From: Dacryopinax spathularia | Lineage: Eukaryota; Basidiomycota; Dacrymycetes; Dacrymycetales; Dacrymycetaceae | DNA: 64,000 nucleotides | Assembly: GCA_037974965.1 (NCBI GenBank) | Contig: JBBPFI010000014.1 | Span: 620,001-684,000 of the forward strand | Direction of reading: 5' to 3' | Shown: piece after piece, positions 19,430 through 55,382 of the stretch | Layout of the letters: every line of letters begins with the position of its first letter | Numbering within the stretch: position 1 is the stretch's first letter | Program-made: the position numbers and the translations under genes | The notes under the pieces: model-generated | Seen by the model: the letters and a program-made list of their open reading frames with translations, nothing else | The model's database searches: none | What the model was told of the DNA's origin: nothing

Positions 19430-22400
19430 ATGTTCTTCACACCAGAGCTCCTGCAGAGACGTGACTCTGGTTTCGGTCTCATATGGCGCGTTTCCTCCCT
19501 TGCATGGTCCATCTTCCTCCTTGTCTAACGCGTCCTCAGGCTGGCCGCAACCCTCGGCTCCAAGTCTGCCCTGCGCAAGCTACCTCGAAAGGGCATCCTA
19601 TCAGCCGACATCCCCCAGCTATGCGAGATGATCTCTTCTCCTCCCGAGCCGCTGGCTCTACGTCTGAGCGCGAATCTCATGGTCGGAGTCGCTCGGTGCG
19701 CTATCCTCATGGATGGGGCGCATATATCGATCATTCTGACCTGGCTGCCCGTCATAGTGTCTATCATGCACGACATGACATGTGGGCCAATGACGTGACC
19801 AACACCTTTACGAACCTCAAGAAGGCGATCAACGCTATGTACATGGAGAACGGCGCAATCACGCTCGAGATGGCGCAAGGAACCGTCCGGTACGGCGCAT
19901 ATATGCGCGCCATGGGGCGTATAGTCACTTATAACTGGTACAACCTAGACCGGATGCGATTACCTTGCCCGTGGCTGGTGACCGTGCAAGCATGGAGTTC
20001 GATTTTGCCTTCGACTTCAACCTTAACTTCGACCTCGGTATTGGAGACAAGGTATCTTGCACTGCGCTGCTGCTAGCTGCGAGACCTGACCTTTCTTCAG
20101 GAATGGCAACTTCCTGTGGCGGCTAGTCCCGACATCCAGCAAAGTACGCTTTCGCGGGGGGCACGGAGACTTGATGAAGCACTGACCCTCGACAGATGCT
20201 GCCCGTATTACCCTCGACGAATCTCACATATTCGACGGCGACATCTCCAGAGCCAACGATTACGAGTTCGACTTTGACTTCGACTTCGGTGGCCCAGCCG
20301 GCGGCCCATCTTCCTCCGCTGCTCCTCGCTCTGCGCAGGCTGGCGGAGGACATGCAACTAGCAGCGCCGGAAACGAGCCGTTCCACTCTGACTTGGGTGC
20401 GGGTCTTGGTGCAGGTGCTGTCGGCGATGACGGCCGCATTGACCTTGGCTTGGGGCTGGAAGACGATGGGTGGGGTGCTGTACAAGGTTGGGGCGGGGCT
20501 GATGCTGGGTAAGTGCGGTGTCGTAGCCCGATGACTGGCTCTTAATTGGTCGTAGGAACGGAGTGCAGATAGATCTCGGTCTAGACGATAACCTCATGAT
20601 GATGGATGGAGAAGTGCCGCCTGGTACTCCTTCGACCCACCTCTCCTCAGCCATCAGGAAAGATATGACCGCGGCGCAGCGTCGCAAGCCGCGCAACTTG
20701 GTATGTCTCGCCATTGCTTCAAGAGTGCAGACACAAATTTCTAACCTCTCTCTAGCTCGCTGATGACGACTTCCAGCCGGGAGATCGTCAACGCACGCCT
20801 TCCCTAACTCATTCGCAGGAAAGCCCTCCCAGTGCCGATGAGCTCGATGCCATCCCACCTGGAGGCAAGCGGCCTGGCGACGAAGTCGAAGGCGGAAAGA
20901 AGAAAAAGAAGCGTGTTCGGCTCCTGCTGGATACTCGTACTGAACTGACTGATGCTGAACTGGTGGCGAACCGGTATGTGCCACCCCTACCAAGCCGTCG
21001 CTTTACACTGACATGGAACAGCGAGGACTATCATGAGATGATGTTGGCGGCTCGTGCGGAAGCTCTAGGGAAAGCTCCCCAGCCCTGGGTGGCCGACCTT
21101 CTCTACAAGGATATGCCAGACTGGTGTAAGCCTTTCTTTTTTCTAGCTGGTCGTCGAGCTCAGTATTAACAGTGGCTGCGCCCGAGTTGCGCGAATGTTT
21201 TGCGAACGTGATCGAAGCGAACGCTGAGGCTCGCAAGAGGCGCTGGGAGGATAACGACGTCGAGGGTAAAGTAAGCTCTCTTCGCAACCGTATCCTTCCT
21301 GACCCTCGTCTAGACGGAAGAGCTGTGCGTCGCCGACTCGATGAAGGGCAAGAAGTCGAACGTGGCAGGGGCGGTAGGATCGTCTATCCCGATGATGAGT
21401 TGCAAGCGCCTGGCTGGGAGCAACGTGGGTGTTGGATGTCGATCTATGGCGTGGTGATATTGACGTCGACTGCAGCATATGATGAAATGAACCTCTTTGA
21501 AGACGATCAGCCGCGGGCTGGCAGCCTGCGCGGTATCTTGCGCCCTTCTCTTCCCGGCTCGGTAAGTCATCCTGTTCCCTTTATCCTCAACTTCTGATTA
21601 TGCGGTAGGTTGAGCAAGGGCGTGGCGCCTCGATTCTGCACGACATCAGCCAGAAGAGCACTGCCTTCCCATGGGACAACGTGGAAATCGAGGGTCATCG
21701 CAGCTCTTCTTGGGCTCCATTCAACAGCGTCGATGGAGGCCCTTCTAGCGGTGGAATGATTGGCATGTTTTCTCCACGACCAAACGGAAGTGCCTCTGGT
21801 CTGAGGTGAGTCTGAGATAGCGTATATATGGATATCTGATGACCGTTCCAAAGGTTGAGCCGTGGAAGCCGCGAAGGCTCCCTTGTTCCGCCCGACCTTC
21901 CTGGAACTCCTAGGCTGTCCTTGTCCGGGGTGGCGGGTCCTCTTGAAGACTACGTGCCGTTCCCAGGTCAGACTTTATATACCGCCGTATCCCGTCGTCG
22001 CTCAGCTCCGGAGATACAGAGGCATCTGGTCACACTCAGACGCAGACACAGACCCAGTCTCAATCTCAAGATGCTGAATCTCTGGCGACTTTGGAGCGTA
22101 ACTCGTTCAACTTCCTAGAGCTCGTGCAAATTACTGGTTTGGAAGGGCGCTCTCTGACCTCTCCCTCTCTAGGTATATCAAGGCCGAACATAATGTTGCT
22201 CAACAGGGCCTTCCTCCCGGTGCTGAGGTTCCCATCATCACGCTAGCTGGCGTGCTCCCTGCCTACGCCAAGACCCGTCATGTGGCTGCGAACGCGTTCT
22301 ATAACTGTCTGGGTGCGTGGTTGGCGTTGACACTCCTTGTTCCTGGACCTGTTATTCGTATGGAGAATCTCTGACTGACACTGGTCATGTGCTAGTTCTG

Positions 22401-22469
22401 GCGACAAAAAGCTTTATCAGGCTCGATCAGCCCGTGCCTTATGGAGAGATCGCCATCTCCATTCTGTAA
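19430..22469 (+). CDS. REC8: Meiotic cohesin kleisin REC8
   Basis: About 17 exons. The N-terminus reads MFFTPELLQRRDSGFG, then LAATLGSKSALRKLP and PPEPLALRLSANLMVGVARV, a Rec8-type kleisin head rather than the GPLAKVWLAAH type of mitotic Rad21. The C-terminus (RHVAANAFYNCLVLATKSFI, PYGEIAI) matches the kleisin winged-helix domain that binds the Smc1 head. The middle is low complexity, with FDFDFDF-like acidic tracts and a KKKKKR basic patch. REC8 holds sister chromatids together in meiosis and is cut by separase. The first intron appears to use a GC donor (TG/GCGCGT), the only way to keep the conserved tryptophan in frame, and another GC-AG intron near 22119-22171 is likely. Introns at 19696-19757, 19890-19948 and 21806-21853 carry the GCGCATATAT-type motif. 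Confidence 0.92.
19890..19948 (+). other. REC8 intron with full palindromic GCGCATATATGCGC motif
   Basis: The 59-base intron has a GTACGG donor and CCTAG acceptor. The perfect 14-base palindrome GCGCATATATGCGC occupies 19895-19908, beginning five bases after the donor. It is the most complete copy of a motif seen in at least nine other introns of this window. Confidence 0.75.
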
Positions 22470-23344
22470 CTGTGAACTGTCGACACTATTCTCCCTATTT
22501 CAGAAGCTGGATGGTAGCCCGATCAAGCAACTCTGCCTTACTTCCCATCGTCCGCAATATGCCTAAGCAACCCCGGCCTCTCTATGAGCCACCAGTCTAC
22601 GGGGTTTTTTCTTATCTAGTAATCAAGAAAAGGTGCTGATCCGAGCATCAAACTCTGTACGCTGAATCAGTATCAAGAAGTATATGTACCGAAACCACAT
22701 GTTCACCTGAAAGTGTTGTAATAACGTCACTGAGTGATGTGTATGCGTAGTTAAAATAACCAAGTTATTCGAGCCTGAGTCTGGAATTCGCTGGGCCTCA
22801 CACGATATCGCACTGGTACCGGTTCGTATCAAGCACTATCATTTCACATCCATCACGCAATGGACGAAGCATGAAGAACTAGTCTGCATGATACGACCGC
22901 GTAGAAGCAGAGAAGACAAAAGTAATAACGGTTTTGATATGTTCAGTGTTGACCGTCTTTCCCACCTGGCGTTCTTCGAACAGTATGTTCGTGGCAGGAC
23001 GCGTCGCGACGCGTCTCGAGAATTGAACGGAACATTCCAAATCGGGACACCCGGGTGTATGCGCATGGACCACCGTAAAGTTAAGCAAAACCTACTCTCG
23101 CCGGCCAGAGCACATCAATCCTGAAATCGTTGGCCTTCAAAATTTTGATTTTTTGCGTCTCCGAATGGTTAACATTCAGTTGTTCTCGCCCAGGCCAGAT
23201 CAGGCAATCAATCCCCCACCCAAGAACAGGGTCCGGCACTTTATTCGGACGCCGAGGTTGTAGCGATCGTTGGCTACTGACCAGCGCGTTTGCTGCAGTC
23301 GTGCTGGAGGACGCGTCCGTCACCAACGTCCACGTCGAAAGGTC
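22470..23344. other. Intergenic region
   Basis: About 875 bases between REC8 and the second DUF6697-like gene, both on the plus strand. Frames present are short and unrecognised. REC8 termination and the next promoter must lie here. Confidence 0.45.
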
Positions 23345-24415
23345 ATGGCTGCCGCTGGTCGGAGCCACCGGGCTGCTGTCGCCGCCAAGGACGAGGAGGC
23401 TGAGCCGGTGCGTCGGGTCGCGCATATATGCTGCACCACCATTGATCCCTAGCGTAGGCGTTCTTGGTCCAAGCTCGAGCCCGAACTTGAGGAGAAGAAG
23501 TTCATCGTCGACGAGCTCACTATCCAAAGCCGGCTCGAAGCCATCACCTGCCCGCCGGTCAAGATCGATCTGGATGACGAAACAGCGGCCAAGACCATCT
23601 CCCGCCAATTCTTCAGCTACCGGTATGGCGGCTCGTCCCAGAGCACGTTTCCCAAGATCGGAGCGGTTAAGAAGGCGCTGCATGATATTCATCATGTGGC
23701 GTTCATGACGCTGGACTGGAATCCGGAGCTGCCCGCCAGCCCGGGTGAGCACGGGTTGGCGTTTTGCAGGCATCCGGAGATCTATGGAAGCATGCCACTC
23801 TTCGTGCGGAGGAAGGAGCATGAGTGGCAGTACATGGGCGAGTATCGGCTGCGCAAGGTCGAGTCGCTGTCGGCAGAGGAGTGGGGTAGGCAGAGCGTTG
23901 AGGTGAGTGCTGTGGTGTCCTGGAAAGGGCATGTCCTGATGGATTACCCACGCTAGATGCGGAACACCTGGCTGGACGAAGGGTACATGAAATTATCCTG
24001 GGGCCAGGAAGCTCGTGCGCGTCACGTCTTCCGAGAAAGGCATGGTAGAGACCCGGAAACGAAAGACGAGATGGAAGAAACGAAAGCGATCACCAAGTCT
24101 GCCGCTTGGTCGAGGGTCACCCGGCGAATGATAGAGGACGATTTGATTGAGGGAACAGAGGTGCGCCTCGACCAACTTCTGGGAAGCCATGGCGTGCTGA
24201 TGGTGAAATAGCAAATCCACGTCTGTGCGCTTGAGTGCATGTCCTATCGAGAGGACTTCCAGAAGGAGCTTATCCGCGGTTTCCGAGGACGATCGTGGAG
24301 AACCTTTCCTAAGAACTCCTGTCGGAAGCGCATGGCGGAGAGCGAGGATACCGACTCGAAAGATGAAACCGAGGAAGAGGAGGGGAGGGACACCAAGCGT
24401 GTGAAGCTTGAATGA
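23345..24415 (+). CDS. DUF6697-like protein, short paralogue
   Basis: Four exons, 23345-23407, 23453-23902, 23957-24160 and 24212-24415, all phase 0, give about 306 aa. Core motifs RQFFSYRYGG, GEHGLAFCRHPE, EHEWQYMGEYRLRK, WLDEGYMKLSWGQ and VCALECMSYREDFQKELI line up with the gene at 159-1886. The second and third introns match that paralogue's two introns; the first, only 45 bases, is extra and carries GCGCATATATGC at 23420-23431. The protein ends with an acidic-then-basic tail (EEEEGRDTKRVKLE), which may act as a nuclear localisation signal. Function is unknown. The longest open frame near 23130-23708 is out of frame with the conserved domain and was set aside. Confidence 0.78.
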
Positions 24416-24645
24416 CGACCATGAATTAGGGCGGACGCGGCTCTTCTAATCGATTATGGCTTAGTTATTTGATACGTCCGAGATACGTCCGACTAGTTAT
24501 CGCTATTTAAACTCTTGTTATTGATTGGTATGAACTCGTCTCGCATCGTCCATGTCTTCATGATACCGGAGCAAAGTGATTGGTTGTAAGCCGTCGGTGC
24601 GGGCACGATTGTGGTCTTGAAGTCCCGCAATGAGACCATTATCAT

Positions 24646-26809
24646 TCAAGATCCGGAATGGAATGCCATATGTGCATCCATGGACCAGGCAAAGACCCCT
24701 ATGCCGCAAATCGCACAAGGTGTCTCTGAGGATTCCGCATCGTCGGAGGAGTCAGAATCTTGGTCCTCTTGCGGTGTTTCTTTCGCTGTGGGTATGGTGG
24801 AAGCGACAGGCAGACTTGGATCGGAAGCTTCGTTGACCAAAGATGCATCGAGCTCCGTCCTTTTCGTGGGCGGACCATCCAACTCAGACTTCAGGTCGTC
24901 AGGATCAAGTCCATATTCGCGGAGGAGCTCGTCCCTGATATTTGCAGGAAGCTCCCGGAGCGTGTTGAGATCCAGGTCTGCCGGCCATGTCGGTCGACGG
25001 CGCTTCCCGCTGAAAGGAGACGACGAAAACTTGGAAAGAAGTACATTTACTGAGCCTTCGCCTCGTGAACGAGAACTGTCAGGTGCCGCCGATGCGAAGA
25101 AGGCTTGGATGGCCTTGGTTGGTGTAGTGGTCTGCAAGTGCGTGACAGCGATGTTGATGCTGGGAGGTGGTGTTAGTTTACTGTAGCTGCGCATATATTG
25201 CCTCTTACATGCTGATCTCGTACTTCTCGGGCGGCTCAGATCCTTTGTCCACGATCTGCTTAGCAAGGCTGGTAAGCGGATGTCGTACGAGGGCCCGAGC
25301 TCGATCTGCCCTAGGGACCGCGAGATCGAATACTGATACCGGCAACGCCGCAGAGCGGCTTTCGCGATTGGCGTTGTAGGGAATGTCTCGAGAATGGCCA
25401 GTCCGAATGGTCAGTCTGACCTGGGACGGGTAGCGTTGCCATTTCCTTCCAGGAGCTGACGAAGGTGCATCGCTCTTCAGGTCTTCGAGTCTTCCGCCGT
25501 CGACAAGTTCGATCTCGAGTCGCCTCAGGAGACTGTTGGCCAAGATTTCGATCTCTCGCAAAACTCCTGGCCAATCGAGGGTTCCGCGGCGCTCATCGAA
25601 AGAGTCCTCAACAGAGATCGTGAGTGGGAAGTCCGGAGACGACTTGACAGGCTCGTCATCCTTGCCGTCCAGGAGATCCCACAACCGCTGACCTTGCTGT
25701 GCGCCTAAAAGTGTGCGGAACACAGATTCCGACATGTTTCGCCTGAGGAACCCGACCGTGAGCGGTCCTTCGAATGTAGGTCCATTGTCCGGCGTGTCGG
25801 CGGACAGTGATTTTTGCGAGGAATTAATATGGTTGTGCAATGTATGCAGCACTTTCGAGCCGAAGCCCATGAGCTTTCGAGCATGAAGAGGATCCAGAAG
25901 ATCTCGCACAACGCTCGCATACACTTCGCCTTGGCTCGGATGAACGACCAGAGTCGTTTGCTGAGCCGGCTTGTGCAGGTTTCCCACTAGCTTAGCCAGC
26001 GTCTTGCTATACGCGATCCCAGCAGACGATCCGAGACCGATCCGCTGCAGGATGAGATGTCTGATATGGTTCGCCAGGTGAGATCCGGCAATCATGGCCG
26101 CCAGATGCTCGGCCTTGGCGTGATCGTTCCCGCACTTAGAGTCCTCGGGGATAGTATACCCAGGACAACCGGCCGAAGGATCATACCAAAACCCCTTGCT
26201 TTCGGGGTGTGCAGTGTCGTCTCCTGAAGCGAGGGCGAACCACCGACCTCGAGGATCAGGCGAGATCGCCGCTACCTCTTCGAGGTGTTGGGCGACCAGA
26301 TCCGTGACATCGCAGAACAGTTCATCCAGGCCTAGCTTCTCAACTGGAGATGGGGAGAGAGTAGTCCGGACGAGGTTGAAAACCTGTCGCGAGTAGTAGC
26401 GATATAGCGTGAGGTCCTCCCCGTTGACCAGGATGAGCGAGGGACCTAGGCTTGCAGTCAGACAGGTGGTCTACGTGCCTACTCTATCACGCACATCGCT
26501 TCTTAGCATCGCGCAGAGAACATAGCTTGTCCACTCCTAATGCCCTAGCCTGACGTGTGGTAAGCCTCAACAATAAAACAGTGATATATGTGGGCGTACC
26601 TCATAGCTGGCAGTCGCCAACAACCCCTTCTGCTGAACGCCGACCGGTTTACCAACGAGGGCTGGATTACGAAGCCGCTCGCAAGCCACTTGATGACAGT
26701 TAACGTAGGCTCGTGTAGAGGTGACTGCCTAGGTCGTACCATACATGTTGTCCAAGTCAAACGCGAGGACGAGGCGAGGCCGGTGACTCCATGCAGCCTC
26801 CGGCGGCAT
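24646..26809 (-). CDS. POLI: Y-family DNA polymerase, iota-like, with UBM and UBZ-like C-terminus
   Basis: Five exons, 26809-26740, 26688-26600, 26549-26495, 26445-25209 and 25159-24646, give about 654 aa. The palm starts LVLAFDLDNMY and continues KPVGVQQKGLLATASYEAR and LILVNGEDLTLYRYYSRQVF, strongly resembling polymerase iota. Likely metal ligands are D18, D112 and E113 (GLDELFCDVTDL). The helix-hairpin segment reads GIAYSKTLAKLVGNLHKPAQQTT. The C-terminus has a ubiquitin-binding motif at about 545-565 (LNTLRELPANIRDEL) and a final CAIC-x11-HMAFH finger of UBZ type. Such enzymes bypass DNA lesions at stalled forks and are recruited by ubiquitinated PCNA. The intron at 25208-25160 carries ATATATGCGC. 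Confidence 0.88.
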
Positions 26810-27145
26810 GCCGCCCCTTCACCCTCCCTCCTCCTTTAAGGTTGCTCGACGCTCAGGAGTATAATAAAGCAAGTTCGGAGCTAAGGCAAGTCATAATGAA
26901 GGGGCGGGAGCGCCAACAAGAAGCGACAGCTGCATCGCGGAGACGAGTTCAGATGACAACGACAAGGTGAGCGCCCTGAATTTCGACACACGGCGAGGGT
27001 GTTTATTAGTACGGTGAGTCACAGCCGAAGATCGGCTGCTCGTGGGAACAGGAATATATCATTGATGCTTTGCGTGATGTTAATGTACAAATGCGTGGGG
27101 TTTCAAGATCCGAAAGCAAGAAGGTATATATAAAGAAAATGTTAG
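26810..27145. other. Intergenic region
   Basis: 336 bases between the polymerase start and the DLT1 stop. No feature is recognised. It should include the polymerase promoter. Confidence 0.4.
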
Positions 27146-29888: not shown

Positions 29889-32800
29889 CTAGAATTGAGG
29901 CGGCAATCTCCCGGAGAGCAGGTGTGGTGGCAGTTGTTGGCCTCCAGCGTTGGCTCCGATTATTGGTTGCCCATGCTGCTGCTGAATCGGCGGCGAAGTC
30001 ATGGGCGCCCCCGGACCGCCCAGGCCGCCCCGAAGGCCACTCTGGAATTGGCTAAGGAGGAGCTGCTGTTGAGTCTGCCTTTGCTGTTGGGCCTGCAATT
30101 GTTGTTGCTGATGGTAGGTTATGCCGCCGGGCGTCGTCGCGGGTCCACTGGGGGACGGAAAGCCTGACATACTGGCTGCCGTGCCCGAGCGAGAGTGGCC
30201 GAGCACACCAGCATTTGGGTAGGTATTGTAGGGCGAGCCACCTTGTTGCAAAGGAAGGCTAGGAGGATACTGCGATTGCGGAGACACAAGGCCTTGCTGA
30301 GGTCGCATGGGCAGGCCTGTTTGCTGAGGCGGAAGCCCTTGATCGGGGAACATTGATCCTGGCGTCAGCGGTTTGCCAGCCGCTGAGGCGCCAAACGGCG
30401 GTCCCGTCATGCCCGGTGGACGTTGCGGTAGACTAGCAGGTGGGTTTGGCAGGTGTTCATATCCAGTTTGTCGAGTAAGAGATCGATCCCGCTGTATGTC
30501 TCCGCTCCGGCTGGCCACCCTTTCGTACGGGTTGCCCTCCATGTGAGAGGGACTGAAAGCTGCTTGGGGCTGTTGAAATTGAGCAAGCAGAGCCTGTTGC
30601 TGCGAAGGCTGCTGCTGTTGCTGTTGCTGTTGTTGTTGCAAGTGCTGGCGTTGTTGAAGCTGAACTTGCTGTTGCGACTGCTGTTGCATCAGACGCTGCT
30701 GATACTCATAGTATTGCCTCTCCCGTTCCCGCTGTTGTTCTCGCTCGTAGTCGACAGAGTTCTGGTATTGACGCAGCCGCATTTCTTGCTGCATTTCCTG
30801 GATCTGAAGCTCGCGTTGAGCCGCCAGCTGCATACGCTCTCTTTGCTCCCGTTGAGCCTGAGCCTGCTGTAAGGCTATCTCGCGTTCTCGCGCCGCTTCC
30901 AGCTCCCGCATTTGTTGGGCACGCTGCTGCTGCTTGTATTCATACAGCTGCTGATACTGGTTCTGAGGTTGAGACGTGGGCTGCGAGGGCTGCGAGAGCG
31001 CGGGAAGCCGTTCCGCCGCATACCCAACCTCCCGCTGGGCGAGATATTGTCCCGCATATGAGGCCTGAGCTGCAATCGGTGGTTGACCGAAGCCAACCTG
31101 GTTTCCACCGCTGGAGAAGGTATTCATCGGTGAGGTGCGGGTTTGTGCAGGAATAGTATTCGAGGGAACCTGTCACACATGTGAGATGAGCACCCCTCTT
31201 ATTTACAAATGTGCTTACTCCACGCAAAGTCGAGAGGAGCTCGTTCATCCTCTGCTGATCGTTGTTCTGTGCATTGACAGAGGGTGGTGGACCTCCGAGA
31301 ATGTTAGACGGCGGTGGACCTCCCAAAGACAAGCCTTGCATCATGCTGCCCAGAGACGCTGTCTCCTCCATCCTCATTTGTGCGGGAATGTCCTGAGAAA
31401 CAGCAGTTGCGTTAGGTCGATTGTCCCAGAGTTTCGCGAACCTGCTGCCCCTCGGAGCTGGGTCGGCCGAAGCATTGGCAGCGGCCATGATAGGACCAGT
31501 AGTCGGGGGGAGAGTGGGTGTAGGGGAGGGGAGCAAAGTATGCGGCGGGGGCACCGAAGCGGTTGTGCTTATAGGCCGATTGAGCTCAGCGGCTTTTTTA
31601 GCAGCATCTGCAAGACCGTTCTGACCGACTCCGAAGAACTCCGCGACAGAGATCTGGGCTCCTTCAGAGGGCTGAGGAGGCGACATGGTGTCTTGAGAGG
31701 TCTGCGGTGTCATCAATTGGTTCTGCCCGTAGTTGGGTGCGCTGACGATCTCGGCGAGCTTGTCCGCAACGCTCTGAGGCGCCGCTGGCTGGGCTGCTGA
31801 AGTGGTTGCTTGGCCGATACCTTTAAATGCATGACTAGACTTCCCTGCAAGGCGGAGATGCAGGGGTAAAGGTGGGTCAGCGGATTGCGCGGCTGCAGAG
31901 ATTGCGTCAATGAGATGTCAGACCGTCGAATCAGAACACTCACGAGGAGCAGCAGTAGTCTCCTTCTTCTCGGTAGCACCCAGGCCAGGTGGTACGGACG
32001 CATCCTTCGCATCCTCACCACTGTCACGGTCATCGACAACTTCTGAGGGCTTCGCGACCTCCTTTTTCTTCTCTTCAGCTTCCTTCATCTGCCTCTTCCA
32101 AGCCTGGAGCTTATCTTCTCCAGAACCGAGTATGCCTCTCAATCCTCCGACAGGTGCAGCATCGTCGGTAGCCCAAGCGGGCTCGCGCTCGTCCAGGTCG
32201 TCCCTCATGCCCGGTCGCCGACGACGTTCAGGAACTCCGAGGGGAGAAGGCGATCGCTGGCGAGAACGAGAGCGACGTCTTCGGGGTTGGTCGGGCGACG
32301 GTACGCGACGACCCTTGTCCCTCTCACCTTCCCTATCGCGATCATTGTCGCCACGACGCAGTCCGTCTCGCTCCTCGCGACGACGGCGATCATAGGCCGC
32401 ACGCTCTTTCTCTGTATCCCAGGGTGTTCGGCCGGTGTTACTGCGTGGCGGAAACTCAGACCGCTCCCTGCTCCGTTCCCTCTCCCTCTCCCTGTCTCTG
32501 GTGGATTCCCATTCCCTGTCCCTGTCCCTGTCCCGATCGCGATCACGCTCCCGCGGTCGACGATCTCGGTCATAACGATCTGGTTCAGGCACCCAGGAGT
32601 CGCCATACTTGCGCATATATTCGGCGTCCCGTTCACGTTCTCTTTCGCGGTCCCGGTCCCGGTCCCGGTTGCGATCTCGGTCTCGTTCGCGGTCTCGTTC
32701 TCGCTCAGGTGGGTCGCGTTCTTCGCGTGTGCCGCCTTCAGCTACATGAACTCAATCAATATTGTTCAAACAGGAGAAGAAAGAGCGGTAAGACGGACCA

Positions 32801-33897
32801 TCTTTGGATCTCCAGTCGTGACTATCCCCCGCGCGTCCTCTCTCTCTTTTAGGTATATCGTTAGTCAGCTCCTCTTCTTTCCTTCGCCGGCCCGCTTCCC
32901 TAGCCCTTTCCCTGTCTGCTGCCCGATCCGCTGCTGTCTCACGGCCAGGATCCCTGTCCCTCGTCTCCCTCACGCGTTCACCACCCCGCAGAGGGGCAGC
33001 ACCTGGTTCACGTTTGGAAAGATGTGGTGCAGTATCTCGGTCACGTTCACGGTCGCGCCGAAGGGCTAACGACGAGGAAGCGAGTCCAGCTCCGCGGTCC
33101 TTGTCAAAACTGTCCAACTAGACAAGGGAAGTCAGATTAACGGTCACAGGCGAGTGCTCTCGGGACGTACAGTGCGCAAGCGATCGCCTTCTGCACGCAC
33201 CGGTGCTAGGCGGAACGAGCCCATGGGTCCTCCTTGGGACAAGCTTGGACGGTATCGTGAGCCACCCTCTTCATCCTCTCGTCGATAGCTGCAGAAGAGG
33301 TCAACCACAGTCCTTGTCCTTGCATACCGTAACGTACCGTCTTTCTCTGCCCGGTCCGCTCTCTGCTGTGGCGAGCTCCTTCGGCTCGCGCTTGTTCATC
33401 ACCGGGCTGGCTTGGTCCGGTTGGCTTGTATGCGCATATTAGCAACACGTCTATCGCAGCCTGCTGCAACAACAGCTTACCCGAACCACTCGGTGAGCTC
33501 CGGCATGCCATCTGGTACTGTGACCAGAGGCGATTTTGATAGGTAGAGCAGTTCCGCGCGTGAGTACTTGACATGTGCACGGCTGCTCGTCGCTGGCTTG
33601 TTTTCGTGGTCGACTGGGGAGTCATCTTCTATTACAAGTACAGTGTCAGCTTCTTGGATATTTGTCCTGCACCAGGCGAGTCATACTTTGCATAATGAGA
33701 TAGTTAGTTGCTGGGAATGGGCTAGGTTGTCGCTTTGTCGTTGGTGAGGTGGCCGGGCTGTTGCAGTCAAAAACGCGGGACACGTACCCCTGACACCAGG
33801 CCAAGGGTTCCGTACTGACATCTAACTTCCGCCCAGTTGCTTCTAGCAACCAGCTGATGCTGCTTCTTTCCGGTTTCTTTGTAGCTTGGATCATCAT
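29889..33897 (-). CDS. Large low-complexity protein, putative eIF4E-binding 4E-T-like factor
   Basis: Eight exons are inferred, giving about 1,165 aa. Near residue 80 is KYSRAELLYLSKSPLVTVP, which includes a canonical YxxxxLL eIF4E-binding motif. Then come an arginine/glutamate/aspartate-rich block (RERDRDRD type, about 32450-33080), the segment VGGLRGILGSGEDKLQAWKR, a SRFAKLWDN segment and a glutamine-rich coiled region ending LSGRLPPQF. The order 4E-binding motif, basic block and Q-rich tail resembles 4E-T/Cup-type translational repressors that act in P-bodies; that name is an inference. Clear introns lie near 33125-33170, 32752-32810, 31830-31942 and 31139-31188. The first intron (about 33660-33790) is uncertain. 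The intron near 33410-33480 contains GCTAATATGCGCATAC. Confidence 0.68.
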
Positions 33898-35633: not shown

Positions 35634-37344
35634 TCATGCCACACTGAAGTCATACTGGACAGCGTGGGAGCCGTCGACGGAGAGTTGGGGCACGATGAAT
35701 GAGGTGCGTGTCGGGTACACGTTAGTGTGCTGGTTCAGCGGCGCGAGGATGTCCTCAGGCTTGGCCATCGGCTCATCCTTTGCGCGCATAGCCATCTCGC
35801 TCGTGACACCAAACAACATGCCTTGCACTTGGTTTTCCTTGCCACCGACGTTAAGATACGAGTCGGAGTGAGGGTACATGGGAGTGATTGGCGTGGCTGG
35901 CATGCTGTCGCTTGCATTGCTTGAGCCACTGGCCGAAAGAGGGGAGATTGAGTCCATGCTGGACCCAGAGCGCGACAGGGTAGATCCGTAGAACGTCTTG
36001 TATGCGTCCGGCGTGGACGGCAGGTCGATGTTCCACTCGGGGAAAGGAGAGTAGTGGTAGCGGTTGCCCTTAGCATACCACTCGGCAACAATGCGAGACG
36101 CGCCAGAGTAGTAGAGGGGCTGGTACTTCTTGACGACCGTCTCAGAGAGGAGCTGCACACCGGAGGCGCACATCTCGTCGAGGGCCTCGGAAACTTCGCG
36201 CGTTTCAGTGGTATCCTCGTTCCTCTGTTGACTAGTGAGTATTCAGGACGCATATATGCTGGGAAGAACTAACAGAGAGGCGGGACTCCCCGAGGATGTA
36301 CTTTGCCAAACACAGAGCACCATGAGCGATCTGGCTGGGCAACAAATGGACGAACTCCTTCTTGAAGAGGGTGAGCTCCATCAAGAACCGAGCGACATGC
36401 TGCGTGCGGGCGTGTTCCCAGCCGGTCTCGCCACTGCACTTAACGCGCATCCAGCCCTCGGCAGTGGGATGGCCAAGATCCCAGCCGATGGTGGCAAGAA
36501 CGTGACGCTCCATCTGGACGAAAGCGGTCTGTTCGTAGGTGTGGCGGCAAATATCGGCGAGGTCGGCGAGCGTGTGGATTCGCGACTTCTCATCTTCGTA
36601 CTTGGCGGCAATCCAGAGAGCAGCACAGCCAACAAGCTGGTAGTGCTTCTTAAGGACGATGCGCTTTGAGACGTATCGGTCAACAATGTTGATAGCCAGA
36701 TAGAGAGTCTCAGGGCGCATGCGAGCCATGAGGTGAACCTCGATGAGGAACTCGACAAGGCACGGGCGCATCTCCCAGCGGAGTTCGGGTTGCTGGTCCA
36801 TGTTCGTGACTTCCGCACGAGTGGCCACCTGCGCATATAGTTAGTTACTGTGAGCGGCGATGACGTCGATCCCACGCACCTCCCGTTCCCGCCAGTGCTC
36901 GAGCACCTCCTCAGCATACTCCTCCTCCTGCAGCATCATGGCATCACGGCTCAACATCTGCTTCTGCTGCTTCTGCTTGTTGATCTCCGCCATGACGGCT
37001 GCAGGGGGGGAGTATCGAAGCTTAGCGATGGTGGCGGCAAGGCCCGGAGACATGCCCGCCTTGCGGCCACCGCTGGCGGCGGTGGACTGATGGGAGACGG
37101 CATGGGCTTTCTTCGCCTGACGGGCGTAGGCGTGAACGCGGGCAGACTTGAGGGCGCCCTGACCTGGGTTTGAACGCGTCTTCATATCGACGTCGGTATC
37201 GGTGGCGGTATCAGTAGCGGTGGCGACAGCGTCGTGTTCAGGCGACGGAGAAGGAGAGACGATGGAGGAAGCTGCGGTAAAGTACTGATTGAAGGGCAGG
37301 GGGCTGGAAGTGGTGGGGCGATCAGTAAGCACGTTCAGGGACAT
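35634..37344 (-). CDS. CLN1: G1/S-type cyclin (basidiomycete Cln1-like)
   Basis: Three exons, 37344-36880, 36828-36274 and 36224-35634, give about 536 aa. The cyclin box (about residues 140-280) contains MDQQPELRWEMRPCLVEFL, VDRYVSKRIVLKKHYQLVG, ALWIAAKYEDEKSRI and FVQMERHVLATIGWDLGHPT. A second cyclin fold follows (HVARFLMELTLFKKEFVHLL). The wording matches the single Cln-type cyclin of Cryptococcus and relatives, which drives G1/S entry with Cdk1 and affects budding and morphology. The C-terminus is serine/proline rich, as expected for phosphorylation-controlled turnover. Both introns carry the recurrent motif: CATATATGCG at 36249-36258 and CTATATGCGCAG forming the acceptor at 36829-36840. 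Confidence 0.92.
36829..36879 (-). other. CLN1 first intron with TATATGCGC at its acceptor
   Basis: A 51-base intron with a GTGCGT donor and overlapping CTAAC branch-point sequences. TATATGCGC lies directly against the AG acceptor, so the motif sits between branch point and splice site. This placement differs from copies near donors in other introns. Confidence 0.7.
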
Positions 37345-40300: not shown

Positions 40301-43174
40301 CTACTCCCTTCGCCTCCGAGCGGACTTTGTCGCGGCCGCGTCCGGGTAAGCCCGCGACAAGAACTGGCACTGACAAATCGAGCTCAGCAGCACCCTTGGC
40401 AACAGCTGAGCTTAGAGCTTACGATCTGGCGATGATCGTCTGCTCGTAATACGGCGGTGCGAACCCTGGCCGAAAAGCAGAATAGGTCAAATCTATGGTA
40501 GCGGCGTGCATTCTCCCTGTTGGGAAAGAAGTCTCATGCATCCAGCGTACGCTTACCCACACCCCGGCCCGGGTAGCTCTTGCTCGCGAATAGTACAACG
40601 AACGGCGATCTGGAGCAGCTTTGTCGTAAATATCCACCGGACAGCCGGAAACAGAGGTGGGTGGTGGGTGCGAGCAGCGATAGGATTGTGACTCTGCCCG
40701 GAATACTCCGTCACGGTCACACATTCCTCGGCAGTTCGGCAGTGAGTCCCCAAATGCACGTGATGTGACGTCTAGGGGACAAGGGGAGTTCCAGGGTCCA
40801 CAAACGCGCGCGACGTTTCCTCCCGACTCTTCACAGCAGCTAAAACGAAGGTGAGACGATGATCGTGGAAGGTGCGCATTACAGAGGCCGAGGTGTAAAT
40901 GTGGAGCTCCTTTGTTGACGTTGTCCAACAAACCTTGTACCACGCTTCCTGCGAGAACGATCATGCTCGCACACCTGGTCTACTCCGCACTCACGTACTC
41001 GGCGTACCACTCAGGGCTATTTGTTTTGAACCTTGTCTCTGTTAATTGTTGTGACGTGGCGCAGAGTAGGCTTGCAGGCACCAAACCTCGCTCCGAAGCA
41101 GAGCAGAAGCGGGCTTGTGCGCTTCGCCGAGAGCTTAAGGATAACGCAACACCGAGAGCATCTGTGCCCAGTAAATATTGTTTGTCGCTTGGCTGTATGG
41201 CTCGCCTCGTAGGTTAGTACGGCATTGTTAATCAGCCCAGTAAACAATGCTCAAACCTAAAAGTATCGACGCTCACTTTACATAAAGAGCCGCTTCCAGC
41301 TCGCACGACCTTGATTGCTCTTTCCCACTTCACGAACTTCACCTTGCGGACGTGGGTTGGTGGAAGTGCAGTCCTTTTTCTAGCTTCTGTCAACATCCGG
41401 TGCTTTGCACTCTTACCGTACTAGCTCGCACATCGAACCTCGTCACCGACCAGTTTCGAGCTCTTCGGAAGATCAGCGGTTACTCCTCCGCAGCAGAAGC
41501 TGGCTTGCCAGTCAGCACCCCAGCTTCCGACCGCTGTCTTCCGATCATCGCGCGCTTGTACACTACCTCCACTACGATAAAATGCTCGGCACATCCACGC
41601 CAGCATGCTGTCAACAGCGATACGAGCTAGTACACTGCTATCCGTCATTGTGCCCGCTCTTCACAACTACCTCCTTGCATCCTGCGCTATCGGTATAGGG
41701 GCTCTGTCTCAACCATGGCCGCCTCCGCTTCATCGTGCAACTTTGACGTCAGAATTTACAACTATATCTCCGGAGTATTATCATCGCTGGCTATTCGCAT
41801 CGCACCGCTCAAACGCCCAGCATACGCTGTTTGCACCCACTCCATGAGTTCAGCCGCGTGTTGCTCCGAGCCTGCTGACATCCGACCACATCGTCCTCTG
41901 CTTGCCGGAGCTCGTCTTTAAATCTCAATCTCCGGCTCCCGGAACCATCACCCTTGGCCGCTACACCCATGACGCGGTCCTTGGCCGTCCACGGTCAGCC
42001 CACCACCAGCTCAATGCAGCCGCTGCCAAACCCCGCGCCAAACTGTCAGACACACCGGCATCTATCAGCATTAATATTGCTTAGAGGATCAAGCTCCTCT
42101 CTCTGCCCCAAGTCACAGACATCCTCAGGCCGTGCCCGTGGAGGCCGGGGGCGCTGCAACACGTGAAACGGCGACATTGCGCTTGTGTCTTGCGATCCCC
42201 GGAACCGGTGATTTCGCCCACCCTGATGGAAGCATTGGTCCGCCGGGAGGCTAAATGCATATATCGGTCTTGGGTGGTATATGCGCCTTGCGCGTTCATA
42301 CAATCTACTTGCTCTATGTTGCAAGTGGTCCTCGGAAATAATCGTTTTTGTTGTCTGCTATTCTGGTCTACTGCTGATACGACAACTTGGCGTGGGAGCT
42401 TTGGCCGCTACTCAGGCACATCTTCCATCAGCGACGTGGTTGTTCTGTTGCACCACGACCGAACAAGCGATAACAGAAGACGCAACAGCTGCTGGCCGGA
42501 ACCGACCATATGCAAAGGACAAGCGGCATCTTCAATAATGCCCAACATCAGGCGCACTAAGGCCGATAAATCTGTCTGGTGCTATCATGTCGCACATTGT
42601 TACCACCCCCTGAACCAGTCAAGAGGCTAATTGTCGTCTCACTCGCAAAGCAACCGCCCAGATACAGAACGTGAACAATGGCGCCAGTCTCAGGTCCCTC
42701 GACCTACGCCCATCTCCTGCCATTGCCGGACCGGAGAAGGTAGAGGGGGTGTAGGGACAGGCGTACTATGTCTTGCTCGGTATCTCAGGAACATACATCT
42801 ATTTAACTGAAGGCTTTGGCCTGAGCGAGTGCCATGGCGACGGGCTATGAATATCTCTCGCCAGGAGGGTTGGGGTATATTATTGCCTTGTCCATCATAT
42901 TCAGACATTATGATGTCGAGACATGGTGCGAGAAGGGGTCCAGACCCCTACTAAGGGCTATCATCCTAGTTGCCAAGCAGATGCCGAGACTGACATCGTA
43001 CAGGCCTCGAGGGAGATCTGTGCCGAAGGCGAGGTTATCCATCCAATGTCTTCATATTGTTGCTTATTTTCTACAGTGCAAATCGTATCTGCGGAATGCA
43101 TGCCACTATGTCTTATCTGCCAGCTACATACCAGCCTCTGTCACGACCCGGTGCCGTCTAGTTGTGCGAGGGGA
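37345..43174. other. 5.8 kb gene-poor region upstream of CLN1
   Basis: No frame here has a recognisable domain, and the longest (40419-40964, minus, 181 codons) looks like chance. There is no reverse transcriptase, transposase or integrase signature, no obvious terminal repeats and no RNA gene that I can name. The first kilobase or so is likely the extended CLN1 promoter and 5' UTR. The part from about 40900 to 42000 is pyrimid ine-rich on the plus strand, like many fungal leaders. Two copies of the GCATATAT/TATATGCGC motif lie at 42257 and 42279. A long non-coding RNA or decayed genes are possible. Confidence 0.5.
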
Positions 43175-44845
43175 TTACTCCAGAACCCAGTTGCTGCCCT
43201 GCTTCTTGATGTACACGGGCCGCTTCTCGTCCAGAGAGATACGGCCGGCATTGAGGATAGCGGTGGTGAGAACGGTATTGAGGATAGTCGGCAAGCCCTG
43301 CTTGTCGAAGTCTTCCGGCTTGGCAAGCCCAGCATTGACAAGACGAGCAGCATCGACGAACTTCTCGATTGAGACGTAGCCGTAGCCGCGCTGGCCGTCG
43401 AAGTGACCGGTTTCGGAGGGAGTGTACTTCATGTAGAAGGGGTTGTAGAAGGCGATACCTTGCCCGTCGACGGTTACGTCGTAGCCACGGTGGGCTTGGT
43501 CGACGTGGACGTCACCCTAGTTAGTGAACGTCAGCCTGGAGGCAGCATATATATGGAGTTAACGTACCTTCTCGCCCATGTAGTGGAAGTGCTGCCCGGA
43601 ATGGATACCAGCGCCCATGGGAGCGGTCCATGACGCAGTGTAAACGGCAGTACCCCGGTGTTTTGAGCTGGAGGTCGATTCCCAGTCCACAAGAAGCGTG
43701 ATCGTATCCTCAGCTTGCGGCACGCAGTTGTACGGCTCGCTGGTTGCGATGCCCTTGCTGGCGCTGGCAACCACACGCGTTGGCACGCCCTTGTCACCCA
43801 TGATCCAGCAGTGGATATCGATATGGTGGGAGTTGAGGTAGTAGCTGAGTACACAGTCAGACGCATATAATGTAATAGACCGATTGGCGCACCTGATATC
43901 CGAATCCTTTCCAGCCCACTCGCGGAAGGTAATGAGCTGGTTCTTCGGCTGGCTCATCCATGCACTGAAGAAGTTGAATTCTCCAAGCTGCTGAGCGCGA
44001 CCACGAGCATCAGAGTAGGCAGGGTCGAACCGCTTGTGGTGCTCCACGAAGCAGACCACGCCGTTCTTCTTCGCCACATCAATCAGCTGCTGGTGGTGTT
44101 CGAGCAGCTGGGTTGCGGGCTTGGTCACAAGAACATGGAGTTTGCGCTCGAGGGCGTAGAGGGCGATGGGATAGTGGGTGCCTATGTAAACGTGAGCCAG
44201 AGCTCCAGATACAACGGAGTTCGGATACGCACTGTCCGGAGTGAAGATGATCACCGCATCGCCAGGCTTGAGCGCATCAATGGCCGTCTTATCTATACAC
44301 TCATCAATATCGCGTAGTCATCTTCAGCACAAACTGCAAGCTCACAGGCTTCCGGGTCGCGCTTGTTTCCCTCAGGATATGCCTTGAAGCTGCCGAGGAC
44401 GTGAGTCTCCAACCTTCGTGGCTAAGTCAAGGATACGCACCTCACGTCAAGATCCTTGTAGACATCTGCAATCTTTGACTTCAAGTGGGCGCGAATGTCG
44501 GGGAACTTGGCACCATTGGTGCCGACCATAGACAACTCATTGACCTATAGCATTGACCGATGTCAAGAAGCCTGCTGCATGAAAACGAGCGCAGAAAGAC
44601 GCACCTTGCCCAATCTTCGGAGGTCGAAGAGTGTCAACCCAACAACGCCGACCTTCTTGTCCGACTGAGAGGCGCCTGCACCAGTCCATCCCGTCGTGTA
44701 CTCTCCAGTACCGCCTACACCGGCCCGCCGTCAGCTCAGTCTGTTTCTCAACGCCCTGAAGTCCCCGGCCCGCGCCACCACTGCAGCAAGCCGATCAAGG
44801 AGACTCACACATCAAACAGTTGAGCTTGCTCAGGTTGGCCTCCAT
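43175..44845 (-). CDS. Gfo/Idh/MocA-family oxidoreductase, D-galacturonate reductase-like
   Basis: About seven exons starting [12 protein letters not shown] at 44845. The N-terminal nucleotide-binding part includes [18 protein letters not shown] and [20 protein letters not shown]. The family lysine-proline motif appears as [20 protein letters not shown]. The second domain carries the [15 protein letters not shown] and [12 protein letters not shown] segments that I associate with fungal D-galacturonate reductases, which take the NAD(P)H-dependent first step of pectin-acid breakdown. The substrate is inferred, not shown. The neighbouring GH71 and CE16 genes make a role in plant or fungal wall polysaccharide use plausible. 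Introns at 43517-43567 and 43845-43892 contain CATATATATGC and TTATATGCGT. Confidence 0.8.
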
Positions 44846-48300: not shown

Positions 48301-48780
48301 AAACGAATTAGTCGTCTGAATTACTGCAAAGGAGAGGAGAAAAGGGCTTACAGAGGTGGAGACACCGAGACCATTGGAGAGTGAGTTACCGCAATAGCAT
48401 TCTTGGGAATATTCGGTGCCGGCGTATGAATATCCGGCACTGGCGCAGAAAGCTTGGCAGGACTCGGTAGTCAAAGAGGATGAGGTGGTGTGACTACCAG
48501 TCAGGGCACGGGCAGAACCGTCGGTCACGCATCCCAGAGAGGTCCAGGTGGTAGCACGAGACTGGAGGTGAAGAGAGGACGCGTTCGGGGAGAACACGTT
48601 CAGGGAGGAGGAAGTCGAGGGGAACGCGTCTGGCGATGTGAGGCCAAGCCACGAATATACGAGCGAGCTGACGCGCATTTTCTTGATGTACTTGATGACG
48701 GAGGTGGACGCGTCAAACTTTCTTCGGCCGAAGACCGTGTCGGTAGAGGGTCCTGCTTGAGAAGGGGATAGAGACTGCAT
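45376..48780 (-). CDS. GH71 alpha-1,3-glucanase with five WSC domains
   Basis: Four exons, 48780-48352, 48296-47994, 47939-46083 and 46029-45376, give about 1,080 aa. Five cysteine-rich WSC domains come first, each with YxYAGxEYSQxC and C(N/S)xxCxGNSxExCGG wording and separated by serine/threonine linkers. The C-terminal 410 residues are a GH71 domain: VVVAHHIVGNTYPYT, AGIDAFALNYG, FKLFLSADMTSLP and TEIISWNDYGESHYIGP. GH71 enzymes cleave alpha-1,3-glucan, a major capsule-anchoring and wall polymer in Tremellomycetes; WSC domains probably bind the wall. The first two introns interrupt WSC1 and WSC2 at the same place. A clear signal peptide is not seen at ATG 48780. ATG 48678 (MRVSSLVYSWLGL) is an alternative, and a GTAAGT donor at 48891 suggests a 5' UTR intron. 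Confidence 0.9.
46830..47790 (-). repeat. Tandem WSC-encoding repeats
   Basis: WSC3 and WSC4 are nearly identical in protein (both with ALAGPSTQTTSMTIEYCQ and CMCDSAIRTGSGQGVLATDG) and clearly related in DNA, consistent with recent internal duplication. WSC5 is more diverged. Confidence 0.75.
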
Positions 48781-51332
48781 CATGTATCGTAGTCGTAGCG
48801 GTCGTGAGAGGATCAGAAGAGAGGAGGGCGCGCAGGAAGCGAACAACCGTCAGCGCCGCAGAGGGGATGAGGTCTAAGGGTAGGTACTTACGTTGATCAA
48901 ATGAGGAAGGTTATAAGGAATCCGCGCCTATGGAGAGAGGTGCCCAGTCAGATCCGAGAATAGATCGGATAACCCCAAAATCGAGCACGATGCGTCGGCA
49001 AAGCAGATTGTATGCGCTTTCTTGTCCACGATTGACTCGATTTGGCGATGGCACGCGGGGAGGTACCGGTCAAGCCACGGAGATGCGGGGTGTCGGCCTC
49101 TGATGATGGAGCGGATGCGGCGCCCGGAACACGACGCGGAAGACGCGTGTAAGGAATGTATGTCGTAAGGCGGTACGACGACCGAGTGAGAAAAAGAGGG
49201 TGAATTCGTCTGACAAGACGCAAGAGTTGGAGCCCAGGAACGCAAGAAGGGAGACGGAGAGCAGGAGATGTTTGAGAGGAAGGGAAGGAAAGAGGCGAAG
49301 GTTGAACGGGCGACCTGGGACTAGAACAGGCGGCGCCTCTTTTGACAGAACCCTTTATTTTTGTCGCATTTTGTCCGCAGCAAAGATAACCTCCGGTGAC
49401 AGATAACGCCGGAAGCCGGAGATGCTGGGCGCTCAATAGTGGCCTACATCGGGAAAATCAGACTATGGACAAAGCCACTTGGTGACGGTATCAAAGGGAG
49501 AGGAGAGGGTTTATTCTCAGGACCCTTCAACCTTCACCGTTCTGATTGGTCCCTCTCATACGAAATAGGGTCATGCCGAGCGCGCCGAGCATCCACCGCG
49601 CCTCTGGTGCCTGAACACAGCACCGCCACCGGTCGTTTTTGCAGGCTTCCCGTATTCAATCGGCTCCAATTCGCGCGGAGTCTCGGATTGAAGCCTTCCG
49701 ATCGGAACCGTCGAACGTTCTTGACTCGGCTTTGCACCATCAGCGCATACATCGCACCCACACCATCCACATCTTCCGATCCTCCGTATTTACGGTGATC
49801 GTTGAAAAGGTTACCGGTTCATTCATCATAGCGAAATAGTGGATATTAATAGCGGGTACCGATTATTAGCCCCGGTCGCCGGTTGCAATCGATGCGCTCG
49901 CACGTTGATGACACGTTTATGTAGTAAACATCGCGGTAACAGCAAGGCGCATGCACGTAAAACACTCGTATTATTACTTGCGAATCGTCGAGTTTTGATG
50001 GTAGGCGAGGTGCAGGCTGCGATGGATCGTATCGTGCATGCAAATCGCCTTAGAAAGCGTGTTCATCATCCATGTGCCTGACGCTCATGGACTGTAGGCG
50101 TCATGCATGGGTGGCCGAGATATACGATCCAACAGAGACCGTGGTTCACTGGAACTAGGCCAACAACTAGTTATCGTTGATAGCCCAAACCTCTCGTATC
50201 CACACGGAGAAATGAGTTGTCGCGGTGAGGGTCGGGGATAAGTCGTGGATCGCGGAGCCGTCAATGCTTGCCAGTGCAGTTCGTTGTCGACCCAATTCGC
50301 GAAGGCCTCCCTCATCCCTTCTTTCTGTCAATCCCCTCCCTGCCTCTTCTCGTACCGACGAGAGCTCTATAACTCATAACTCAGTATAATCTGTCGATAA
50401 ATAGGATGGTTCCATCGTGCCTGCCCACCTGCAGCCATCAGCTCTCCCCACACCAGGCACGATGCGACCCCAGATCTCCCGACTTTGCGACCTCGAATTC
50501 GTTGCACACTGCCCCTTTATGGGAAGTCAGAGGCTTGGACACGCAAGCTATCCATCAACCCCGGAGGAGGAGGAGAGCATCCTGAATAGCGGGATATAGG
50601 CGCATATACGCATGCATATGCGACTTGCCGATGCGTTGACTGGTCGCTCGTCGGGACACAGCCTGGCTTGGTGGGACGGCAGGCGCGTCTATCTCAACCT
50701 TCTACCCGTTGCTCCTGACCATATCTACCATCCAGATTACAAAAACGATACGTCGTTGAACAAAGTGACAAGGATGAAAGCCATTTGTCGATCACGGCAC
50801 ACCTTTCCACCCACTGCAGCATCGCGAGACGCGACATGGAAAATACCGAGTGGATATCGCCTTCCGGTTTCCCCCTTTCCCGCTTCCCCAAGTCTCCCCA
50901 AGGGGCAACCTCCGTCCCTCCTCCCCTCCCTCGTACGGCCGACTACCCCACTCAATACCCCATAAACCAATCTCCCGCTCACATCAGCCCATCGCGCTTC
51001 TCAGCCCGGTCACACGCTCGAGAAGCCCATCACGCGGGAAAACGTCGGCTCCGTACTTCTCCGGATGCGTCATTGGCCCCGATGGTCGACATCCCCGATC
51101 GCATGACCTCGACTCGGACCACGAGCGTCGACCACGAGCACGATGTGTAACTCAACTTGTTCAGCGGGAAGACGTCTATGGCGCCTGGCTGAGGAGGGCT
51201 TCTCGGTCTAGGACCTAATCGGGTTGTCGCCGGGGACGGAGTCAGCAGGGGAGAGGCTATAACACCTGCTCTCCGTCCTCGTCGGCGTCCCCAGGTAGCA
51301 GCAGCAACAGCAGCAGCAGCAACAGCAACACG
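48781..51332. promoter_or_regulatory. 2.5 kb divergent region between two secreted-enzyme genes
   Basis: The GH71 gene (-) and the GDSL/CE16 esterase gene (+) start at opposite ends. Only short unrecognised frames occur inside. GCGCATATACGC lies at 50600-50611, with GCATATGCG just after it. The last part (51300-51331) is a CAG/CAA repeat in the esterase 5' UTR. A shared regulatory region is possible but not shown. Confidence 0.45.
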
Positions 51333-52626: not shown

Positions 52627-53031
52627 ACGCCAAAAAAGCGGTACGGAGGATACTGTAACCAGAAGGTAAAAAGCGACAGCTCGTCTTACATAAGTAAAGT
52701 GTAACCACATCAATTCCCATCGTTCGGGGTGTTGAGCGAGTCATTCAGGACACGGCCCCGACAAGGACTGCGTTAAGATAAGGCAAAGGCACTGCTAAAC
52801 AAAGAAAGCTGTGTGCAATTATTACTTTGTTGGGGCGTATCACTCGCTAGTTACCCTGCATATCGCGGGTCCGCTTTATACGGTCCCTCGGAAGCCCTCG
52901 GCCCGCTTCCGCTCGCTTCTTTCGCCAGGGTCCCCAGGGAGGGACCGAAATTTAGCTTCCGACCGCTTGCCCCTCATCCCCACCGCATAACGGCAGGGGT
53001 GCAGCAGGCGCATATACAGAGGTCCGTGTGT
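52627..53031. promoter_or_regulatory. IDI1 upstream region with a possible 5' UTR splice acceptor
   Basis: 405 bases before the first IDI1 ATG. GCGCATATACAG at 53008-53019 resembles the motif-plus-acceptor seen in introns, so a 5' UTR intron may end at 53019, twelve bases before the start codon. No sterol-response site is identified. Confidence 0.4.
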
Positions 53032-54129: not shown

Positions 54130-54571
54130 GCTGGCAGGTGTTCGATTGCTGACGGGATGCCGCCGGTCTATCGCGTTATTGTAATACAGAAGCGGGGGAA
54201 GCAAGAAGAGAGCACGTCTTTTAGCAGCTCGGGATACTGTTCTTCATATATTTAGAGGTAGGAGAGAGAGTATGACCATCATTGTATACCCCTATGATGG
54301 GAGCGCTTCCGCGCCCGTGTTAGGGGCCAGACCTCTTGCTCCCTCGTGTTTTCCTCCCTACCATCTTCCAACGTCTTCCCGCTCCCTTTCCTCATTAGTC
54401 AACGGCGCGGCCTTATTGAGCGGTTCGCGAACACACGGGAAGAACGCATGGCCCGGTCTTCCGGGACGGGCGGGGCGCGGAGGCCGTCATATCCCAAAGA
54501 GGGCGCCCACTATTATTCCGCCTTTGCCTTCTTGTCCATTGGGTTTGTCTTGCTCTCTTACCACTTAGACA
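54130..54571. other. Intergenic region
   Basis: 442 bases between IDI1 and the zinc-finger gene. No feature is recognised. Confidence 0.4.
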
Positions 54572-55382
54572 ATGAACCGCTCGCGCATATATGAACACCC
54601 GAATCCAAGCGGTTTCGCAGCAGAGGAAATGGCCGCAGCTGCTGTGCGTATATATTGACCCTAAACCCCGTACTATGATCGCTCATCGTACTTGCAGGTC
54701 TTGACCAGCTTTAGGCGCAGTATGAGCAGGTCGCCTCCTGCCGATCGACCATTGTCTCAGACTCGATCACGACGGGTATGCGTTCATCGGTTCCATTCAT
54801 GGCGGCGACATCTGATATCTTGCGTAGGACACTCTGGAGCTGCTGCGGGCTGTCGAGGAGGAGCTTGACGCCCTCCTACCCGACAGGTCAGATAGCGAGG
54901 ACAATACGCCTGAATTAGACCGACGGAGGACGGCATCAACCCGCTCATCGCATGAGCTGCAGCAATCAGACGGCAAGGGATGGTCCAACAGGGCGGCGAG
55001 CGAGAATGTCTCAGCGTCGCCGCCGTCAGCGAGCACCGAGAATGCCTCGCCACTCACCACCGCTCCGCCCTCACCAGTCACACCATACTCCCCAACTACT
55101 AGTACAGTCGGCGGCGCCAGCACGTCCGTCTTTCCCGTCACTAGGCGTAAAGGTGACCGATACCTACGCCCTCGACCCAACTGTGATGTCACGACTTCTC
55201 GAGCATCCGACCTCCGCCGGCACCTTCTCACGCACGGCCAGCAATCCTTCACTTGCGACATCTGCGGCTGCGCATTCGGAAGAAGGGATGGAGTTACATG
55301 GCACCAACGGATGGGGAGGTGTAAGGGTATGGACGGCGGCGGTAGGGGGAAAAGGGGCAGGAAGGGCGGGAGGAGGAAGTAA
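54572..55382 (+). CDS. C2H2 zinc-finger protein
   Basis: Three exons, 54572-54643, 54698-54775 and 54828-55382, give about 234 aa. A helical segment DTLELLRAVEEELDALL is followed by a long serine/threonine/proline-rich region. Near the C-terminus a degenerate finger (NCDVTTSRASDLRRHLLTH, lacking the first cysteine pair) precedes FTCDICGCAFGRRDGVTWHQ. The second finger ends in HQRMGRC rather than a His-His pair. The tail is strongly basic (GKRGRKGGRRK). It is probably a nuclear DNA-binding factor; targets are unknown. The first intron begins GTGCGTATATATTGAC, combining the donor with a GCGTATATAT form of the recurrent motif. Antisense frames over this locus are shadows. Confidence 0.7.

Follow-up and report, generated by a model that had tools for sequence, protein, structure and literature searches.

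Introner-like elements of fungi are recurrent sequences found in introns of unrelated genes, and introners have most of the intron in common. The CArG box of MADS-box proteins has the sequence CC(A/T)6GG. Here we describe the word GCGCATAT, which is over-represented in a window of 64 kb, the whole stretch of DNA analysed (positions 620,001 to 684,000 of contig JBBPFI010000014.1 of Dacryopinax spathularia). The analysis suggests that GCGCATAT and its close kin constitute a putative uncharacterised binding site. As with introner-like elements, the word recurs in introns of unrelated genes, but only this short word is common to the introns that bear it (motif introns). The related palindrome GCATATATGC is AT-cored and 10 bp long like the CArG box, but its outer bases are GC...GC instead of CC...GG.

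The Efg1 motif taTGCAta, as given in the sections consulted of PMC3744398, is likewise a short near-palindrome with ATGC and GCAT steps; however, TATGCATA is not contained in GCGCATATA, the longer form of the word. For AT-hook-like minor-groove sites, the duplex CGCGCATATATGCG that served as binding substrate for Lsr2 (sections consulted of PMC6906086) offers a physical precedent only, the probe being designed and the protein bacterial. In the available text of McGuire et al. (PMC2397502), who treated intron definition in fungi, the term 'motif' is absent. The available text of a paper on Cryptococcus transcription start sites (TSS; PMC11302930) describes six core-promoter motifs and, figures aside, contains no GCG-initial word, while the part consulted of a review on Cryptococcus introns (PMC5851062) states that no element of alternative-splicing regulatory networks has been identified there. 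The literature was searched for the exact words GCGCATAT, ATATGCGC, TATATGCGC, GCGCATATA, AGGCGCATA and GCATATATGC; going by titles and abstract beginnings, none of the papers listed presents the word as a fungal motif, which is not proof of absence.

Excess and placement of the word

All data stem from this one window and from gene models of our own, and several tests were chosen after the data had been seen. On both strands, GCGCATAT was present in 16 copies, whereas dinucleotide shuffles averaged 1.93 copies and never exceeded 8 (0 of 100 reached 16). Markov models of orders 1 to 4 predicted 1.7-3.8 copies. The excess within the window is secure. An earlier annotation of this stretch (the original prediction) had reported 14 hits where about two were expected; the expectation and the excess hold, while the count was too low (the copies at 7486 and 13803 were overlooked) and two positions are corrected here, from 32614 to 32611 and from 42280 to 42279. 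Its label 'near-palindrome' suits few copies, the full 14-mer occurring once and GCATATATGC three times.

The word is sharply delimited. Each of the 24 one-base variants of GCGCATAT was found 0-5 times, and A was the next base after GCGCATAT in 14 of the 16 copies. For GCGCATATA, 14 copies were counted vs 0.41 expected under an order-3 Markov model, and its 27 one-mismatch neighbours together yielded 16 vs 10.7 expected. Among all 8-mers, CGCATATA ranked first under Markov orders 1, 3 and 4; under order 2 it was second, and the only 8-mer above it was a simple repeat. Under order 3, log10P was -12.3 for CGCATATA and -8.9 for the octamer GCGCATAT, with at most -8.1 in 40 simulated sequences; the corresponding values under order 2 were -10.1, -7.2 and -5.9.

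Genes were modelled by a dynamic programme using codon usage and splice sites. The strict set obtained in this way contains 52 introns; a curated union, from which introns longer than 130 nt and overlapping ones had been removed, contains 76 (4604 nt). C at position +4 of the donor was favoured (52% of the 52 strict introns). Pfam matches were obtained for REC8, the impB/mucB polymerase, the cyclin, the GFO/IDH/MocA oxidoreductase, the DUF6697 gene, the NUDIX gene and others. For the 4E-T-like gene, two pieces scanned with Pfam gave no match; this presumptive label comes from the original prediction and from a YSRAELLYLSKSP-type sequence.

The 16 copies of GCGCATAT comprised seven in six introns, six intergenic and three coding ones, after reading of the frame had moved the copy at 54583 to the coding class. 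In a first partition, introns (4.6 kb) held seven, intergenic DNA (28.2 kb) seven and coding DNA two copies, with shuffled expectations of 0.23 (300 shuffles), 0.68 and 0.73 (60 shuffles each). The resulting enrichments of about 30-fold, about 10-fold and 2.7-fold (two copies), respectively, refer to this 7/7/2 partition. The predicted concentration of the word in introns was borne out insofar as introns are its densest compartment; it is not an intron-only element, because intergenic DNA is also about 10-fold enriched.

De novo word search in the introns, as advised in the original prediction, led to the same word. After removal of the splice ends, the intron bodies of the curated set contained GCATATA 12 times vs 0.8 expected and ATATATGC nine times vs 0.28; in both the curated and the strict set, these were the top 7- and 8-mers, beyond 100 simulations. 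With intron 54644-54697 also counted, ATATATG and GCATATA were the two most intron-biased of 705 heptamers having at least eight non-coding copies.

Ten of the 76 predicted introns, located in seven genes (two each in REC8, the cyclin and the oxidoreductase gene), hold GCATATA or GCGCATAT (Table 1). Six of them are the octamer-bearing introns named previously, all recovered in the curated and four in the strict set; four more hold GCATATA, and among these are the near variants proposed for a cyclin intron (at 36249, given before as 36248) and for both oxidoreductase introns. The other proposed variants fared less well. That in REC8 at 21820 was set aside because its 252-nt model intron is too long to trust; that in RPS11 comprises ATGCGC only and lacks the core; that at 54646 (GCGTATATAT) does sit where the likely intron 54644-54697, read by eye, has its donor. 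Of the ten motif introns, four have their junction within a Pfam match (a sub-cut-off one in two cases) and six outside. In detail, intron 19696-19757 interrupts the Rad21_Rec8_N match (residues 4-92) at residue 55, intron 36829-36879 the Cyclin_N match (147-273) at residue 155, and the two oxidoreductase introns a match slightly below the Pfam cut-off (127-256) at residues 161 and 253.

Two forms and their sites

The base following GCATATA differed between compartments. With palindromes merged, GCATATAT was found at six intronic, two intergenic and two coding loci, and GCATATAC at one intronic, seven intergenic and two coding loci (Fisher P = 0.04 for GCATATA loci, post hoc and with small counts). 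Likewise, GCGCATATA was followed by C in five of six intergenic vs none of eight genic copies (Fisher P = 0.003, again post hoc with small counts). All three GCATATATGC palindromes are intronic, an outcome with a probability of 0.0004 under random placement (post hoc). The 12-mer AGGCGCATATAC occurred in four exact copies, all intergenic, where 0.008 were expected (post hoc); copies of it with one mismatch were not found in the window. Simple repeats aside, the only 12-mers with at least four copies were AGGCGCATATAC and CAACATGGCTTG. The latter is ascribed to internal repeats of a gene at 45376-48783, which encodes WSC domains and a glycosyl hydrolase 71 domain and whose repeats lie 357-369 bp apart.

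Table 1. Positions of the word and its variants in the window.
Element	Position	Strand	Location	Remark
GCGCATATA	19718..19726	+	REC8 intron 19696-19757	junction inside Rad21_Rec8_N match
Full palindrome GCGCATATATGCGC	19895..19908	.	REC8 intron 19890-19948	junction just past Pfam match
GCGCATATATGC	23420..23431	+	DUF6697 gene, first modelled intron (23408-23452)	
GCGCATATAT (sense ATATATGCGC)	25189..25198	+	impB/mucB-type polymerase gene, intron 25160-25208	
GCGCATAT (sense ATATGCGC)	33432..33439	+	4E-T-like gene, intron 33407-33480	loose model only, 3' end uncertain
GCGCATATA (sense TATATGCGC)	36831..36839	+	cyclin intron 36829-36879	abuts acceptor AG; junction inside Cyclin_N match
Variant CGCATATATGC	36249..36259	+	cyclin intron 36225-36273	palindrome GCATATATGC at 36250
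Variant GCATATATAT	43545..43554	+	GFO/IDH/MocA oxidoreductase gene, intron 43517-43567	
Variant ACGCATATA	43861..43869	+	GFO/IDH/MocA oxidoreductase gene, intron 43845-43892	
GCATATA, then C	6703..6709	-	F-box/LRR-like gene, intron 6677-6755	gene label by eye
AGGCGCATATAC exact	42277..42288	-	intergenic	
AGGCGCATATAC exact	50598..50609	+	intergenic	
AGGCGCATATAC exact	53006..53017	+	intergenic	octamer 126 bp upstream of modelled start codon of NUDIX gene
AGGCGCATATAC exact	63449..63460	-	intergenic	
GCGCATATAC	7486..7495	+	intergenic	
GCGCATATA, then T	61271..61279	-	intergenic	
Coding copy	13803..13810	+	Ser/Thr phosphatase	RAHM
Coding copy	32611..32619	+	4E-T-like gene	EYMRKYGDSW (minus-strand reading)
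Probable coding copy	54583..54591	+	near start of zinc-finger gene	RIYE

The coding copy at 13803 is probably accounted for by a phosphatase protein motif which we take to be conserved. Around the octamer loci (14 of 15, without 13803), 6 related half-sites were counted at distances of 9-60 bp, whereas random non-coding positions had 2.0 (P = 0.04).

Within the ten motif introns, the word is preceded by 5 to 46 nt of intron sequence and, as had been claimed before, ranges from near the donor through to the acceptor; unlike core spliceosomal signals, it has no fixed position. Three motif introns carry a palindromic word; in the others it is reversed in five and forward in two with respect to the sense strand (P = 0.45). 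Donors deviating from GTRNGY were found in 4 of 10 motif introns and 10 of 66 others (Fisher P = 0.08), and branch points of motif and other introns did not differ (P = 1.0). When introns were aligned with the word masked, motif introns showed no extra likeness (mean 6.13, maximum 11) as compared to the others (mean 7.26, maximum 17), in agreement with the previous statement that they share no other sequence. The mean RNA fold z-score was 0.09 for motif introns and 0.07 for others (Mann-Whitney U test P = 0.99), which speaks against the structural element that had been suggested as an option, at least in the form of an RNA hairpin. Searches of Rfam at gathering thresholds and with ARAGORN returned 0 matches.

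Candidate DNA-binding site and rival explanations

We propose, with a confidence that falls just short of even, that an abundant DNA-binding protein of this fungus, one of high sequence specificity, recognises GCGCATATA. The binder might be a transcription factor or a general chromatin factor, its protein family being conjectural. Its sites would be retained mostly in non-coding DNA, the favoured form being AGGCGCATATAC between genes and the more symmetric GCATATAT(GC) in introns. The protein would contact the word as duplex DNA, and its binding may matter to transcription of the host genes. Recognition of duplex DNA is favoured because the word is used on both strands and is present between genes. 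Of the functions listed in the original prediction, a DNA-binding site is accordingly preferred, and a splicing element is retained as a rival.

Several observations weigh against such a site. Under an order-5 model, the excess of GCGCATAT shrinks to 16 vs 6.9 and is no longer exceptional. Introns are denser in the word than intergenic DNA, holding 6 of 12 non-coding loci on 14% of the length (binomial P = 0.003; 4 of 12, P = 0.02, if only strict introns are considered), and this would not be expected of a plain promoter site. Further, a sharp word with so small a tail of near matches, the clearest being GCGCATACA with five copies, is unusual for a transcription factor. Finally, the split of T and C by compartment could mean two different elements. 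Approximately one intron in eight of this fungus may bear a 10-bp palindrome, GCATATAT(GC), as a dedicated mark, and AGGCGCATATAC may be a related but distinct intergenic mark, with one factor or paralogous factors reading the forms differently inside and outside genes; we consider this rather unlikely.

Equally doubtful is an element acting at the RNA level, where a nuclear RNA-binding protein would read AUAUGC(G/U) in introns of pre-mRNA and assist in the recognition of short introns, or in their retention or decay. It is kept alive by the intron excess, with the word ranking first in the de novo search of intron bodies, and by the presence of sense ATATGC in 8 of 10 motif introns; the unusual donors of some motif introns fit as well. 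Against such an element speak the use of both orientations, the variable position, the lack of a fold signal and the similar branch points. The intergenic enrichment counts against it as well, and only two of the six intergenic octamer sites (7486 and 61272) score high as possible hidden introns. A neutral origin appears improbable, whether the word arose by composition or mutation, through AT steps local to CpG-rich non-coding DNA, or by chance within the window. While purines and pyrimidines alternate at the sites and the order-5 expectation comes closer to the observed number, that model was trained on the same few copies, and orders 1 to 4 fall far below 16. Moreover, one-base neighbours of the octamer that keep the alternation have 1-5 copies, and the observed value was not attained in any of 100 order-2 simulations for which introns had served as training data.

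Slightly more improbable still is that a mobile element left the sites as footprints or prefers them as targets, or that the introns are introner-type copies. The sharpness of the word and the exact copies of AGGCGCATATAC would suit young copies, but word-masked motif introns are no more alike than others, and no repeat family of at least 22 bp in the window lies at the sites. The earlier argument against mobile introner copies, namely the lack of extended similarity among motif introns, is upheld. A TATA-type core promoter element is the least probable explanation. Cryptococcus has a TATA motif 35-40 bp upstream of the TSS, according to the part consulted of PMC11302930. The word does contain CATATA, and the copy at 53008 lies 126 bp upstream of a modelled start codon; yet 7 of the 16 copies are intronic and lie downstream of modelled start codons, and 14 of the 41 CATATA copies in the window are preceded by GCG, a triplet that is dispensable for a plain TATA element.

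Other features of the window and significance

A region of 5.8 kb upstream of the cyclin gene (37345-43174) is without a modelled gene or, by eye, a convincing frame, and may represent an extended regulatory or non-coding region. Three related F-box/LRR-like proteins, labelled by eye, are encoded in tandem at 3190-4498, 5442-6993 and 7923-9455; their long open frames had no Pfam match. Two proteins encoded at 159-1886 and 23345-24415 are alike by eye, and the DNA arms 1354-1439 and 23822-23907 are 71% complementary. DUF6697 was matched only by the 23345-24415 protein, one exon of the 159-1886 gene having been scanned. RPS11, the phosphatase fragment and a POT transporter had no relative in viral contigs to which they were compared. 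The S11/uS17 protein had its best matches in chains that we take to be from ribosomes of yeast and other fungi, in keeping with the fungal appearance of the window.

A word that outranks branch-point words in introns of a fungus rich in introns, and that has a separate intergenic form, would provide a handle on roles of short fungal introns beyond splicing. If it recurs genome-wide, this could be tested immediately using existing genomes and RNA-seq.

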